Origin: Kalaharituber pfeilii
Lineage: Eukaryota; Ascomycota; Pezizomycetes; Pezizales; Pezizaceae
Direction: 5' to 3'
DNA length: 64,000 bases
Assembly: GCA_015179045.1 (NCBI GenBank)
Contig: WHUZ01000038.1
Location: 434,001 to 498,000, forward strand
Shown: positions 1,913 through 60,100 of the stretch, in pieces
Layout: each line of letters begins with the position of its first letter
Position numbering within the stretch: the first letter of the stretch is position 1
Made by a program: the position numbers and the translations under genes
Notes under the pieces: generated by a model
What the model saw: the letters and a program-made list of their open reading frames with translations, nothing else
Database searches by the model: none
Told to the model about the DNA's origin: nothing

Positions 1913-1972
1913 ACCTCGCCATAGCCCATAGGGCGGCATGCGAGTAATGAAATTAAAAAAAAAAAAAAAAAA
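1913..1972 (+). mobile_element. LINE-A hairpin-only insertion
   Basis: The insert is only about 40 nt of the LINE-A 3' end (CCTCGCCATAGCCC...GCGAGTAATG) followed by poly(A). It is flanked by a perfect 13-bp duplication TCAACTCCAAGGT (1900-1912 and 1973-1985). The 5' end falls next to the base of the CTCGC/GCGAG stem. Confidence 0.92.
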
Positions 1973-3690: not shown

Positions 3691-3876
3691 CTATTTTTAA
3701 GTGCCTCGGGGAAGTGGGGCGGGGAGGGGTTGATGTTTTCGTTTGTAGAGATGGCGGTGGAAGATTTAGGTAGATAAGCCTGCCTCCGGGCTTTGAGGGT
3801 CTAGACCCAGGGGCCCTGCCATGGCGAACAGCTACAAGCGGGGTCACGTGAAAAAAAAAAAAAAAAAAAAAAAAGA
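2166..3876 (+). mobile_element. 5'-truncated LINE-B copy
   Basis: A non-LTR retrotransposon copy begins inside the reverse-transcriptase domain and ends in poly(A). It is bounded by the 11-bp duplication GTGTCTACCAG (2155-2165 and 3877-3887). The 3' untranslated part (3690-3850) ends in the family-B hairpin CCCTGC...GCGGGG and a GTCACGTG box. Its clean duplication suggests a recent insertion, although the coding part already has frame breaks. Confidence 0.93.
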
Positions 3877-4467: not shown

Positions 4468-4524
4468 CGCCTTTTCTTTTTTTTTTTCACGTAACCCCGC
4501 TTGCAGCTGTTCGCCACGGCAGGG
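4468..4524 (-). mobile_element. LINE-B hairpin-only insertion
   Basis: A 57-bp insert consists of poly(T) then the reverse complement of the family-B hairpin. The flanks carry the 12-bp duplication CTCGCTGGTCGG (4456-4467 and 4525-4536). On the minus strand the insert starts at CCCTGCC, the hairpin base. Confidence 0.9.
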
Positions 4525-29916: not shown

Positions 29917-29978
29917 TTTTTTTTTTTTTTTTTTTTTTTCACGTGACCCCGCTTGTAGCGGTTCGCCATGGCAGGGCG
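29917..29978 (-). mobile_element. LINE-B hairpin-only insertion
   Basis: A 62-bp insert (poly(T), CACGTGACCCCGC...GGCAGGG) between copies of TATATGCGAGTC (29905-29916 and 29979-29990). Its 5' end lies at the CCCTGCC hairpin base, with two extra bases. Confidence 0.9.
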
Positions 29979-30917: not shown

Positions 30918-31178
30918 ATTCCGTCACCATTTAACTTAGCTACCTTTTTCTATATTCATTTGAGAGTGCAAAGAGCTTAGTCTCATACCAAAGGGCTATA
31001 GTTGAGGATAGTGATGTAGTATTTAGTGTATGTGATCCTTTGCTATGTAAGAGGGGGATTGAATGCTATACTTTCCCTACATATCATTGAAAACGGTGTA
31101 GCCATCAAATATTCTCCAAATATTCAGGCACATCTGCTGTATATTCCGCAATTTACCTGATGTTGCTAGCATGCCTTA

Positions 31179-31443
31179 GCCTCGTCCCCAGGCGGTTGCC
31201 CTGCCATGGCGAACAGCTACAAGCGGGGTCATGTGACATAAAAAAAAAAAAAAAAAGTCCCCAGGCGGTTGTAGAAGCCTGAGATTAGCTAATCGGGTGA
31301 TCACGTGAGTGCCAAGAACTGTAAATGTAATAAAAACATACAACCATTTAAATGACAGTTTTTATTACATTTACAGTTCTTGGCACTCACGTGATCACCC
31401 GATTAGCTAATCTCAGGCTTCTACAAACGCCTGGGGACGAGGC
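31179..31443. mobile_element. Near-perfect foldback MITE, mariner-like
   Basis: The element starts GCCTCGTCCCCAGGC, ends with the complement, and has TA on both sides (31177-31178 and 31444-31445). Without its LINE-B insert it is 192 bp, with arms of about 85 bp differing at one position (GGCGGTTG versus GGCGTTTG). The spacer is only about 20 bp. TA duplication suggests Tc1/mariner mobilisation. Confidence 0.9.
31199..31256 (+). mobile_element. LINE-B hairpin-only insertion inside the MITE
   Basis: 58 bp, starting exactly at CCCTGCCATGGCGAAC and ending in poly(A). It is flanked by the 15-bp duplication GTCCCCAGGCGGTTG (31184-31198 and 31257-31271), so it postdates the MITE. Confidence 0.95.
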
Positions 31444-35759: not shown

Positions 35760-36895
35760 GTCTAGTGGACTATCTATAAAGGATTTCTCGCAGCAGTGGG
35801 AGGTACCTCGTATCACTGAGTCTACTTTGGATGCTGTCGAGAGGCTGCTATGCAGGGCCTTACAGGATTTTTTCTGCAGGCAGGATATCTCATCGCCATA
35901 GCCCATAGGGCGGCATGCGATTCATGAAATAAAAAAAAAAAAAAAAAAAAAAAAGGCAGGATATCTAGAAGTACCGGCGGGACCTTTTTACATATTTGCA
36001 GAAGGATGGGATTCCTTTGCGGTATAGTGCTGCAAAGGATTTTGTTATTATTCTGAAAAGATTGAAGGAGGAAGCGCATGCACCGAGGGAGGAGGGGGGT
36101 ACTCAAGAGTGCAGGTATTGGTAGTAGAACTACTTCTACTGCAGTAGCTTTTTATTATTTGAAGCGCCTGAAAGTACCCTATCCTGCTATTGATACCTGG
36201 GTTGCCGAAACCTCTACTACATTTACAAATTGGGCACACTATATGGAAACTTATACTCTTGCTGATGAGCGGCGTAAGCACTATCCAGTGGGGTTCCTTG
36301 ATATAAACCAGCTGCAGTTAGTACTTAATGCTACTGATAATATAGTAGTTTATGATACAGATACCCTTGAAGTTGGGAAATCGTTTTGGGTGAGTATATA
36401 TATATATTTTTGTTTATTTACTGGGACTAATATTTGTAGCTGGACAATCCCGGAAAAATGGTTCTTCAGGGCTATACGACTGGAAATCTTTCGAAACCAG
36501 CCTTTGAATGGGTGAAAAATCATCAGGCCAAATATTCGGATAGTGATAAGAAGGAGTACTATCAGCAAGTATCAGCCGCATTTGCGATTTTCTGGAATCT
36601 CATGTGCGAGAAGCTGCCTGAGCCTATTATTTCGGATTTCGAGGAATTCCTTACAGATACTGGTATTCCACGCATGCATTACCCTGATACTCCCCCTATA
36701 TTTTCGGTTACCCATACATTTTCCCAGCAACCTCTTGCACCTCCTTCAGGACAAACGACTACGAATTATGTCCGTTATATACATCGTGAAAAAAATGCAA
36801 CGATGTATCTATCGTTTTGGACTACAGGCAGGAATTGGAAATGTGTAAGAGAAGGAATTTGGGGGAAATATAGATATATGGCTCTGGAACGTTGA
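35760..36895 (+). pseudogene. Degenerate unknown gene with one intron
   Basis: A first part reads ESTLDAVERLLCRALQDFF, is interrupted by a LINE-A tail (35891-35954) and an in-frame TAG, and resumes KYRRDLFTYLQKDG and KDFVIILKRLKEE. Further stops occur near 36120. The frame at 36078-36389 then gives AVAFYYLKRLKVPYPAIDTW and ERRKHYPVGFLDINQLQLVL. A 50-bp intron (36390-36439, GTGAGT to TGTAG) joins it in frame to 36440-36895: LDNPGKMVLQGYTTGNL and CEKLPEPIISDFEEFLTDTG. No family is recognised. It could be a host gene family or a retroelement-associated protein. It abuts an LTR-like sequence at 36908 in opposite orientation. Confidence 0.5.
35891..35954 (+). mobile_element. LINE-A hairpin-only insertion
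   Basis: A 64-bp insert with a 24-nt poly(A), between copies of GGCAGGATATCT (35879-35890 and 35955-35966). The outer stem pair is A-T (ATCGC...GCGAT) instead of the usual C-G. Confidence 0.93.
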
Positions 36896-36907: not shown

Positions 36908-37360
36908 TGTCGAAAATGGTATAGTACAACGTGCAGTATTTCCACTACCTTCTGTTTCTATATTTGCCTCCGAGCATTAAGGGTCCAGGCCCAGGGGCCC
37001 TGCCATGGCGAACAGCTGCAAGCGGGGTTACGCGAAATAAATAGAAAAAAAAAAAAAACCTTCTGTTTCTTCTATTTCTTTATATCATTCTGTAATGTTC
37101 CATCACTTTCTGTTCTATTTCTAGTTCTCTCATACGTCATGTATTCTGGATGTTTCTGTCTCTTCGTTCTTTACTCTTGATACGTCTAGATATCTTTAAA
37201 CTCAGGAGGATCAAGTTACACACACTTGACTTACATATTCTAATCCTTTGGGAATATCTACATTCTCTTTGTACCCGAGATCTCAATTTTAAATAGGTCT
37301 CGAACTTCCACCTGTACGTTGGTCGAACTCTAATCAGTCGACTTTGTCCTTCCTCTAACG
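36908..37360 (-). mobile_element. Degenerate LTR, relative of the 30571 copy
   Basis: In reverse complement it matches the solo LTR at 30571 along most of its length (GTTCGAGACCTATTTA, GTTGTACTATACCATTTTC). It contains a LINE-B insertion at 36960-37058. The outer right end is degraded. Confidence 0.75.
36960..37058 (+). mobile_element. Short LINE-B tail inside an LTR
   Basis: A 99-bp insert between copies of CCTTCTGTTTCT (36948-36959 and 37059-37070). It extends about 40 bp upstream of the hairpin, so not every B insert starts at the stem base. Confidence 0.92.

Positions 37361-40352: not shown

Positions 40353-40357
<5 letters not shown>

Positions 40358-40400
<43 letters not shown>
40358..40400. 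repeat. Poly(T) run of about 43 bases
   Basis: A long homopolymer T tract. The sequence right of it (GTGGTTTTGACTTTTGTCC) is not a known tail family, so it may be the poly(A) of an unrelated minus-strand retroinsertion or a slippage-expanded tract. Confidence 0.7.
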
Positions 40401-43994: not shown

Positions 43995-44059
43995 CCTCGC
44001 CATAGCCCATAGGGCGGCACGCGAGTAATGATATAAAAAAAAAAAAAATAAAAAAAAAG
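43995..44059 (+). mobile_element. LINE-A hairpin-only insertion
   Basis: A 65-bp insert between copies of CCCAGGGATTTA (43983-43994 and 44060-44071), starting CCTCGCC at the hairpin base. It lies about 100 bp past the stop codon of the minus-strand membrane protein gene, probably in its 3' UTR. Confidence 0.92.
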
Positions 44060-46960: not shown

Positions 46961-47534
46961 ATTGGTACATTCTCTCCCATCACTAGGACGAAGAAAGGTG
47001 GAACGCCACCCATTAACACAACCAGCCACACCGACACCGGCCATCACACCGGCCATCGTTGACCTAACAATACGAAGCAGCGAAGGAGCCCCAGAGAGGA
47101 TGGAAGGCATCAGTTACAACAATACGAGATTGGGAGATCACAACACCACCTAAAGGACCCAAAGGTAGAGCGAGAGCCAACAAAAAGGCCATGCCAAGGG
47201 TGGCAAAGAAGGGCGGTGAAAGCGCTCCCCAGCATAACACCGCGCCTCCACAGAGCGGCGAGAAAGCCGTAACAGCCGTCACACCAGTTCAGCAGACACC
47301 ACAACAGCAGAATGACAAGAAAGAGGATTCGGCCACCGTGAACATCCCCAGCAACACGCACCCCCAGCACTGACAACGACCGAAAAGAACCCGCAAACAG
47401 GCCCCAAGACAAAAGAATCAGCACCTCCACCGGACGCGAGCAAGTTGGGAGGAAACCAGCAAAAGACAGAGAACAATAAACCGCCACTGGCAAAGAGAAT
47501 ATGGCAAGCCAGGGTCTTCGGCGGGAAGGAGATT

Positions 47535-47586
47535 TTTTTTTTTTTTCACGTGACCCCGCATGCAGCTTTCCGCCATGGCAGGGCCT
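47535..47586 (-). mobile_element. LINE-B hairpin-only insertion in gag
   Basis: A 52-bp insert, the smallest in the window, between copies of GGAAGGAGATT (47524-47534 and 47587-47597). Removing it restores the gag frame ...GGKEIDEDP. Confidence 0.93.
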
Positions 47587-49980: not shown

Positions 49981-50040
49981 CCCTGCCATGGCGAACAGCT
50001 GCAAGCGGGGTTACGTGAAATAAAAAAAAAAAAAAAAAAA
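49981..50040 (+). mobile_element. LINE-B hairpin-only insertion in RNase H
   Basis: 60 bp, starting exactly at CCCTGCCATGGCGAAC, between copies of GCCTACCTCGGGGA (49967-49980 and 50041-50054). Confidence 0.95.
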
Positions 50041-57162: not shown

Positions 57163-60100
57163 CTAGCTGCGAGGCGATTTCGACCTCCGATGGCACACCA
57201 GGTCTGCACTTACGCTCAGTTTTCGCTTCTGTCCAGGTGAAGGTGTGGTCGGCGAGGGGTTCAATTGTGCACCACGATCACGGAGCAGCTTGACTATTGG
57301 GTGGTATTGCCTGTCAATCGCTATAGAGAGGGGTGTTCTGCCACGTCTATCCGGTAAGTTAATGTCAAGTTCTGGTCGTCCGAGCAACAGGCGGACTACA
57401 GCCTCATGTCCATATTTGGCTGCCCTGGACAATGGTGTTTGGCCGTCTGAATCCGCCATATTGACATCGACATCGGCTCGCTCAAGCAACAAGCGGACTA
57501 CAGCCCCACGTCCACGTACGGCTGCCTCGGATAATGGTGTTAGGCCGTTTGAATCTGCCATATTGACCTCGACATCGGCTCGCTCAAGCAACAAGCGGAC
57601 TACAGCCTTATCTCCATGTTGGACTGCCCACGCCAATGGCGTGTAGCCGTGGTCATCCGTCATATTGATATCGACATTGGCTCGCTCAAGCAACAAGCGG
57701 ACTACAGCCTCATGTCCACCTACGGCTGCCCAGGATAATGGTGTTAGGCCGTTTGATCTCGTTATATTGACATCGATATCAGCTCGCTCAAGCAACAAGC
57801 GGACTACAGCCTCATGTCCGTGTTCAGCTGCGTAGGACAATGGTGTTCGGTTGGTGTATCTGCCTGCCATATTGACATTGACATCGGCTCGCTCAAGCAA
57901 CAAGCGGACTACAGCCTCATGTCCGTGTTCAGCTGCGTAGGACAATGGTGTTCGGTTGCCTGCCATATTGACATCGACATCGGCTCGCTCAAGCAACAAG
58001 CGGACTACAGCCTCATGTCCATGTGCGGCTGCCCAGGATAATAGTGTTCGGCCGTCTGAATCCGCCATATTGACATCGCCATCGGCCCGCTCAAGCAACA
58101 AGCGGACTACAGCCTCATTCCCATGTGCGGCTGCCCAGGATAATGGTGTTCGGCCGTCTGAATCCGCCATATTGACATCGACATCGGCCTGCTCAAGCAA
58201 CAAGCGGACTACAGCCTCATGTCCACCTTCAGCTGCGTAGGACAATGGTGTTGGGCCCAAACCCGCCATATTGACATCGACATCGGCTCGCTCAAGCAAC
58301 AAGCGGACTACAGCCTCATGTCCGTGTTCAGCTGCGTAGGACAATGGTGTTCGGCTGTTTGAATCTGCCATATTGATATTGACATCGGCTCGCTCAAGCA
58401 ACAAGCGGAATACAGCCTCATGTCCATGTTCGGCTGCCCAGGATAATGGTGTTCGGCCGTTTGAGCCTGCCATATTGACATCGACATCGGCTCGCTCAAG
58501 TAACAAGCGGACTACAGCGTCATGTCCACGTTTGGCTGCCCAGGACAATGGTGTTGTGCTGAAACCCGCCATATTGACATCGACATCGGCTCGCTCAAGC
58601 AACAAGCGGACTACAGCCTCATGTCCACGTTCGGCTGCCCAGGATAATGGTGTTCGGCCCAGTTCGTCTGCTATATTGACATCCACATCAGCTCGCTTAA
58701 GCAACAAGCGGAATACAGCCTCATGTCCACATTTAACTGCGTAGGACAATGGTGCTCGGCCGCAAGCCGCCATATTGACATCGACATCGGCTCGCTCAAG
58801 CAACAAGCGGACTACAGCCTCATGTCTACGTTCGGCTGCCCAGGATAATGGTGTTCGGCCCAGTTCGTCTGCTATATTGACATCCACATCAGCTCGCTTA
58901 AGCAACAAGCGGAATACAGCCTCATGTCCACATTTAACTGCGTAGGACAATGGTGTTCGGCCGCAAGCCGCCATATTGACATCGACATCGGCTCGCTCAA
59001 GCAACAAGCGGACTACAGCCTCATGTCCACGTTCCGCTGCCCAGGATAATGGTGTTCGGCCCCGTTCGTCTGCAATATTGACATCCACATCAGCTCGCTC
59101 AAGCAACAAGCGGACTACAGCTTCATACCCACATTTAACTGCGTAGGACAATGGTGTTCGGCCGCAAGCCGCCATATTGACATCGACATCGGCTCGCTCA
59201 AGCAACAAGCAGACTATAGCTTCGTGACCCTGTGCAGCAGCGTAGTGCAACGCCGTGCTGCCGCAGCTAGCTTTTTCATTCGGATCCACAATTTTCTTCA
59301 GCAGAACACGGAGGATACACTCAACCCCGAACGAGGCGACAGCATGCAAGCTCATAAATTTGCACTCATAATCCCAAATCCATCTGCTGAACCAACACTC
59401 CAGTTCCATAACAGCTGGGCAGCATTCACGTTGAAGCATTGTAACAGCAAGGTTGCAAGTAGTTTCATCACACTGCTTTCGCGCATGATGGCCCCATTGA
59501 GAACATGCGTACCGAAACAAAGCGTAGCCGTCATTTAGTATCTGATACTTATTAGTTGAACGATAGTAGGTAATTAGGTCGGAGAAGTCCAGGTAGGTAA
59601 TACAGGTCCTTGCAATCAGGTTATGGCCGGTTGGAAAGTATTTCTCATAGTAGGATTTGAGATACTCCTGGAGTGTGTAATGTACTAGACGAACTGTTGA
59701 CGTTTCATCATCTATTGTCACTAGCCCACAGCAACAGCGCAGTATTATGTTTGCAGAGGGAATGTTGTTGCGATGCAGAGCCTTATCCCCATCTTTTACC
59801 GAGAGTGCATGGCGCAGCTCTATGACTTTCAATGGTCGCTCTGCTAGGTATGTCCACATGAGAGCTCTCATGCCTAGATCATATCGGGATTGACTCTGTG
59901 ACTCTCGCATCCTCACTATGGTTCCATTATATGCCGCATGAAGACCCGGAGGAAGGCTGTGAAGAGCAAATCTTCTCATAGCCACAGTTACCTCATCTAA
60001 GATCATGTCGATGTGCAAGACTGAGAGCAAGAACCTAGATTTGACGTTTAGTTATCATGTTCATACAATGTTTATCAGGATTTGGAATAGATCATACATT

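Follow-up and report, generated by a model that had tools for sequence, protein, structure and literature searches.

Short hairpin-only inserts with 5' ends at the stem base of two LINE 3' tails in Kalaharituber pfeilii

At position 31199 of the window, i.e., the whole 64,000-nucleotide stretch of Kalaharituber pfeilii DNA analysed here (C293:434001-498000; genome of 78 Mb in 360 contigs), a B-type insert consists of a single hairpin and a run of A between target-site duplications (TSDs), and it begins at the foot of the hairpin stem. The preliminary description had named seven such inserts with two unrelated tails, A and B, and the question they raise is what fixes the 5' end at the stem. Three answers had been offered, namely a small processed RNA as the template, a block to reverse transcription just past the hairpin, or an autonomous micro-SINE.

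All seven inserts named earlier were found in the window, each with its hairpin, A run and target duplication, and the TSDs are 11-15 bp long (those of inserts 4468 and 1913 established partly by eye). The entries of the earlier list are real, but the list was incomplete, as an A insert at 35891 and a double-hairpin B insert at 36960 were missing from it (Table 1). The 31199 insert interrupts one of the two arms of an inverted-repeat element; in the opposite arm, which reaches to about 31443, the empty site is preserved with one difference. The element itself (about 31180-31443) is MITE-like with long arms, and a query with 31170-31430 gave 85 genome matches. In another copy of this element, a hairpin-only insert of the B4 subfamily occupies the same site (L006, C332:189944-190103; TSD GTCCCCAGGCGTTTG). 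Since this second insert lies at the identical position, the arm at 31184-31271 may be a recurrent nick site. Elsewhere in the window, the longest run of A or T is a 44-nt T run at 40357-40400, near an A-type tail, and a large ORF on the reverse strand (57163-60030) encodes a GPIID_WHD domain and many ankyrin repeats, as in an NLR-like fungal gene.

Table 1. Inserts and related features of the window (positions are those of the window).
Feature	Position	Strand	Remarks
Left TSD of the 31199 insert	31184..31198	+	GTCCCCAGGCGGTTG, 15 bp
B hairpin-only insert body	31199..31239	+	41 nt (42 counting the last G of the TSD as insert)
Poly(A) tail of the 31199 insert	31240..31256	+	17 A
Right TSD of the 31199 insert	31257..31271	+	
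B hairpin-only insert (named 4468) with A run	4477..4524	-	TSD 12 bp, by eye; the script made no call
B hairpin-only insert with poly(A)	29917..29978	-	TSD GACTCGCATATA, 12 bp; CG (two bases) precede CCCTGC
B hairpin-only insert (named 47535) with poly(A)	47533..47586	-	TSD AATCTCCTTCC, 11 bp; AGG (three bases) precede CCCTGC
B hairpin-only insert with poly(A)	49981..50040	+	TSD 15 bp
A hairpin-only insert with poly(A)	1913..1972	+	TSD 13 bp, by eye; repetitive target, in which the script chose a remoter copy of a local repeat as TSD
A hairpin-only insert with poly(A)	43995..44058	+	TSD CCCAGGGATTTA, 12 bp
A hairpin-only insert, stem variant ATCGC/GCGAT	35891..35954	+	TSD AGGCAGGATATCT
B double-hairpin insert (hairpins I and II) with tail	36960..37058	+	TSD ACCTTCTGTTTCT
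3' end of a longer B2 copy	3814..3874	+	Hairpin I directly upstream of hairpin II; parental context

The A and B units form stem-loops at the 3' end of fungal LINEs that encode RNase H and end in poly(A), with parentage shown for A and B2. An RNase H domain (PF00075) was found upstream of A tails (L102, L117) and of a B2 tail (L142), with frames that stop about 110-500 nt before the tail, which confirms the earlier label of LINE. The same hairpins also form the 3' tails of shorter elements that appear ORF1-like. Long B1 copies are 1.4-kb elements with a retained 3' UTR and a single frame, which we take to be ORF1-like. Four of them (L028, L036, L038 and L019) have nearly identical 5' ends, and these 1.4-kb elements probably constitute a non-autonomous family of their own. 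A Pfam search with the B1-element frame matched no family, and the six protein matches of the L028 frame are all hypothetical proteins of K. pfeilii. Genome-wide, 150 RVT_1 matches were scored, and pairing them by eye with the tail lists left one plausible pair (C4), too few to use.

The A tail folds into an outer stem, CTCGC/GCGAG, and an inner stem, GCCC/GGGC. The closing pair covaries: among 79 distinct sequences it is paired in 69, being C-G in 44 and A-T in 15. The B tail folds as R-CCCTGC/GCGGGG-U with a purine-U closing pair. A conserved, covarying 3' stem-loop, characteristic of stringent-type LINEs, is therefore present. Directly upstream of the B hairpin (hairpin II) adjoins hairpin I, with a predicted energy of about -13 kcal/mol in B1 and in B2. 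The 50 nt upstream of the A hairpin are unstructured (62 copies; median MFE -2.0 kcal/mol, median z +0.4, 2 of 62 below -10). The motif CATGGCGAAC in the B loop resembles the HDV catalytic strand; an HDV-like ribozyme was rejected, as an Rfam search of six loci yielded just three weak matches, all to two miRNA models and below gathering scores.

Hairpin-only inserts bear the marks of target-primed reverse transcription, i.e., a 3' poly(A) and a TSD at an endonuclease-like nick, and for A and B2 their 3' end is common to an element with an ORF2 domain, as the RNase H matches indicate. The nick preference (pyrimidine before, A-rich after) and the TSD length, mostly 11-15 bp, are alike in 71 hairpin-only and 16 long B copies.

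The 5' junctions were studied in samples of copies from the genome as a whole. Exact 3' ends numbered 332 for B (with A8) and 1138 for A, and reversed control patterns gave 0. Copies were chosen by their 3' end only. For B, the first 90 of the 332 places in listing order were examined, 30 as 3-kb loci and 60 as stretches of about 650 bases, with junctions defined by exact duplications of at least 9 bp. Inserts of 39-46 nt made up 44 of the 90 (43 independent, since L075 and L081 have one duplication in common), 3 measured 78-164 nt and 12 measured 371-1482 nt, while 31 showed no duplication. For A, the first 30 of the 1138 places comprised one insert of 22 nt, seven of 37-42 nt, 13 of 114-1239 nt and nine without a duplication.

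With looser anchors applied to every retrieved stretch, duplications were obtained for 66 of 109 A tails and 101 of 164 B tails. For the pile-up test, one insert per distinct TSD was kept and the 20 B loci fetched because they looked hairpin-only were left aside, giving 66 A and 92 B inserts, with expected counts taken from the 40-300 nt background. Within six positions round the stem base fell 19 of 66 A ends against 0.48 expected (39-fold; Poisson p about 5e-24) and 58 of 92 B ends against 0.42 expected (139-fold). The fixed end at the stem base, proposed earlier for two unrelated tails from a handful of inserts, thus extends far beyond the window, and the genome-wide junctions show an excess at the hairpin base in place of a smooth series of truncation points. 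This 5'-end rule in two LINE tails is real, strong and unusual.

A second pile-up of B ends is observed at the foot of hairpin I, with 9 inserts at 73-80 nt versus 4 at 81-300 nt; 8 of the 9 come from loci fetched for GGGG before hairpin II, so that this class is over-sampled relative to the 42-nt class, but not relative to other extended lengths. The junction anchors need the 3' strand of the stem, and ends downstream of the stem were therefore sought in a separate search. One clear case of an end before the 3' strand was found among 122 B tails, and no clear case among 59 A tails. In L126, at about 2364, a poly(A) insert with a duplication contains just the final bases of the B tail (TCACGTGA), i.e., a truncation ahead of the hairpin. 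Seven A inserts with poly(A) and TSD (L128, L106, L125, L135, L140, L018 and L122) have their 5' ends within the hairpin itself, next to the inner stem or immediately before the outer one and 12-18 nt away from the anchor end; such ends look like stalling of the reverse transcriptase. Both families also contain ordinary truncations, whose lengths scatter between about 85 and 1,200 nt.

The junctions themselves were compared in a set of hairpin-only B inserts from which the 20 loci selected on their 5' side were left out. Position -1 holds a purine in 60 of the 62 independent inserts (G 53, A 7, C 1, T 1). As this purine can pair with the U that follows GCGGGG, the modal 42-nt insert begins at the first base of the folded stem. 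When 3 rows whose stems are aberrant are dropped as well, 59 junctions remain; 26 of these end flush at -1, 15 have an untemplated base at -2, and microhomology would fit 12. The 42 B2 junctions include 20 flush at the templated G (7 more when a shared G is counted), 1 that extends as far as the second templated G and 12 with a non-template base at -2. Ordinary truncations were represented by the 11 of 20 alignments that had a template of about 98% identity or more, lower identity and T-run cases being dropped. Microhomology was found in 7 of these 11 versus 12 of 59 hairpin-only ends (Fisher p 0.007), and untemplated bases in 0 of 11 versus 15 of 59 (p 0.10). ZfL2-2 elements, mostly truncated, often have extra bases, according to PMC2666801, and this contrast between junctions is therefore suggestive only.

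These observations can be explained if the LINE machinery copies RNAs already shortened from the 5' side, with ends flush at a stem through processing or protection, a reading based on sequence to which we give an even chance. The LINE protein would take up an RNA as template through the 3' stem-loop of A or B. The parental LINE RNA would frequently lose its 5' part as far as the foot of a stable stem, either through trimming by nucleases that follow the structure or because the stem-loop and poly(A) are shielded by bound LINE protein. The protein would then carry out ordinary target-primed reverse transcription on the remnant. The cDNA would reach the end of the shortened RNA, now and then with a stray base added. 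The resulting insert would be a unit of 42 nt (hairpin II) or, in fewer cases, one of about 78 nt (hairpins I and II). Human LINE-1 ORF2p grips a stem-loop of its template together with the single-stranded A tract of about 15 nt that comes after it (PMC10830416). A protein that holds a stem-loop and an A tract in this way would find a natural template in a shielded stem-loop remnant.

We infer that the end of the insert is determined by the RNA and not by the reverse transcriptase, with trimming or protection as the presumed cause. A template-set end is favoured because ends are flush at three stem feet, because A has no block upstream and because the junctions are unlike those of ordinary truncations. 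Points that speak against it are the seven A ends within the hairpin, the unequal hairpin-only shares of B1 and B2 and the prevalence of G at -1 in B1-type copies, both described below. Among the three mechanisms offered earlier, the small processed RNA is accordingly the one that the junctions appear to favour. In a wider version, the LINE lineages concerned would have as their main mobile unit a stem-defined processed RNA of about 42 nt with its poly(A), a minimal template shed in several successive subfamilies that inserts several times more often than the LINE, i.e., a parasite recut again and again from the 3' UTR and not inherited as a gene. We put this forward tentatively, as possible and not as probable.

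In an alternative that we regard as unlikely, the LINE RNA is intact, reverse transcription ends on leaving the hairpin and the cDNA end is then joined to the target. The hairpins of RNA and cDNA might re-form and strip the hybrid, or, in B, hairpin I might lie ahead as an obstacle. The position of ends at the 5' foot of all three stems examined would be expected from this, and the adjoining, stable hairpin I of B1 and B2 and the A inserts that stop within the hairpin are also in its favour. However, A reaches an equivalent end position with no stable structure upstream, and a hairpin should block at its own 3' side, where almost no ends occur. Hairpin-only ends show microhomology only at chance level, in contrast to its frequent occurrence at ordinary truncations. 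In addition, the hairpin-only shares of B1 and B2 differ despite the similar strength of their hairpins I. The block just past the hairpin that had been proposed consequently fails for A, whose upstream 50 nt are unstructured, and is viable for B, where a second hairpin is directly upstream.

The difference between B1 and B2 emerges from exact genome counts. B2 (GCTAC, TCACG) has 140 exact copies, with GGGG in front in 16 and absent in 124, the latter being counted as hairpin-only from the missing GGGG and not by individual reading. The 16 GGGG-fronted copies comprise eight of 73-80 nt, one of 90 nt with a T run, three of 154-164 nt, one of 370 nt, one hairpin-only insert behind a chance GGGG (L133) and two that gave no duplication. 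The three of 154-164 nt (L132, L138 and L141) end no more than 10 nt apart, beside a T run of the 3' UTR. The B1/B3 pattern (GCTGC, TTA) is preceded by GGGA in 225 copies and by GGGG in 10, and 135 copies have a non-G base at -2. Of these hairpin-like copies, 20 were fetched; the script found a TSD in 13, and LINE upstream sequence was seen by eye in none. The share of hairpin-only copies differs greatly between B2, with its 124 of 140, and B1, whose 225 GGGA-fronted copies compare with only 23 hairpin-like copies, among the first 100 listed, that have the B1 base A at -1. The two have a nearly identical hairpin II, and the ratio is rough since the search patterns differ in length. Something beyond hairpin II must then set the rate, and as hairpin I is about equally stable in both, RNA abundance or decay is the likelier cause.

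A headless micro-SINE, in which dedicated genes transcribe the 42-nt hairpin RNA as a true mobile family that evolves apart from the LINE, is decidedly improbable. Its precise 5' end and the predominance of copies without upstream sequence (124 versus 16 in B2, 98 versus 26 in B4) would suit such a family. B4 (TTGG, GCATGC) has 124 exact copies, 39 of them with GG; 26 of the 39 coincide, by eye and among the matches listed, with exact CCAGGGG places, which leaves 98 without CCAGGGG, at least one of which (C68) looks like a mutated CCAGGGG context. All four exact B4 copies in retrieved DNA are without upstream LINE sequence, a further point for the micro-SINE. Yet 29 exact B4 copies stand in CCAGGGG context (among the matches listed, first 100 of 121), which refutes an independent B4 lineage devoid of upstream-bearing copies. 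Every B subtype tested, B1 to B4, has copies with upstream sequence, for B4 by the seven bases CCAGGGG alone, and those of B2 reach the RNase H gene (L142). The varied loops of A hairpin-only copies also recur in longer A copies. The autonomous micro-SINE is in this way weakened and less likely.

The micro-SINE would also accommodate the base at -1, which in the first 100 of the 135 B1-type hairpin-like copies is G in 72, A in 23, T in 4 and C in 1, G being rare among the parents: upstream-bearing B1/B3 copies have A in 225 of 235. Copies in G context with a B1 core (B3) number 17 among the first 100 of 121 listed, 8 of them already within the 10 with GGGG. With so few G-context parents (10), the G of most B1-type hairpin-only copies would call for an older parent that had G or for an untemplated G, of which a cap G is a possible source. 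Finally, random 5' truncation viewed with bias, which would account for the scattered ordinary truncations of both families, has a negligible probability, since ends at the stem base exceed the background 39-fold in A and 139-fold in B.

If the processed-RNA reading is true, this genome would be a natural record of the smallest RNA that a LINE accepts, i.e., a stem-loop, about 11 single-stranded bases and poly(A), and the hundreds of insertions would allow template recognition to be mapped. LINE 5' ends would prove to be set by RNA decay or protection, and a route would be suggested by which a SINE tail arises while no head is yet present. Repeat annotation may also easily overlook inserts of 42 bp. 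No report of hairpin-only LINE inserts was found among titles and the beginnings of abstracts, a coverage outside which most subscription papers lie.

Hairpin-only inserts are similar to 5'-truncated LINE copies in their poly(A), TSDs, nick site and LINE 3' end; unlike the scattered ends of such randomly truncated copies, theirs are fixed within 1-2 nt at stem bases. As SINEs do, they form a short, non-autonomous, many-copied group with a LINE-like tail, and no head derived from tRNA, 5S or 7SL is present, the 42-nt unit being wholly common to the LINE 3' end. The SINE partners of stringent LINEs have a transcribed head, whereas the hairpin and tail described here are mobilised without any preceding sequence. 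Alu, a Pol III gene, measures about 300 nt, in contrast to a 42-nt piece of the LINE's own 3' UTR. The 1.4-kb B1 elements, with one ORF1-like frame and a 3' UTR, are presumably comparable to HAL1-like ORF1-only elements; their frame matched no Pfam family. The recognition of Alu and LINE-1 templates, in which ORF2p holds a stem-loop and a single-stranded A tract, offers a close parallel (PMC10830416). Tailless retropseudogenes are likewise short truncated RNAs inserted by LINE machinery (PMC3747384); they have no poly(A), the feature through which the hairpin-only copies were found. According to PMC3747384, 3' stem-loops are common among 'stringent' LINEs, and SART1, of the stringent type, ends in poly(A). 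The A and B lineages resemble such LINEs (SART1, plant ME1 and others) in that compensatory changes mark the 3' stem-loop, which in A and B precedes poly(A), and in that one tail is common to several genome elements (PMC3747384).
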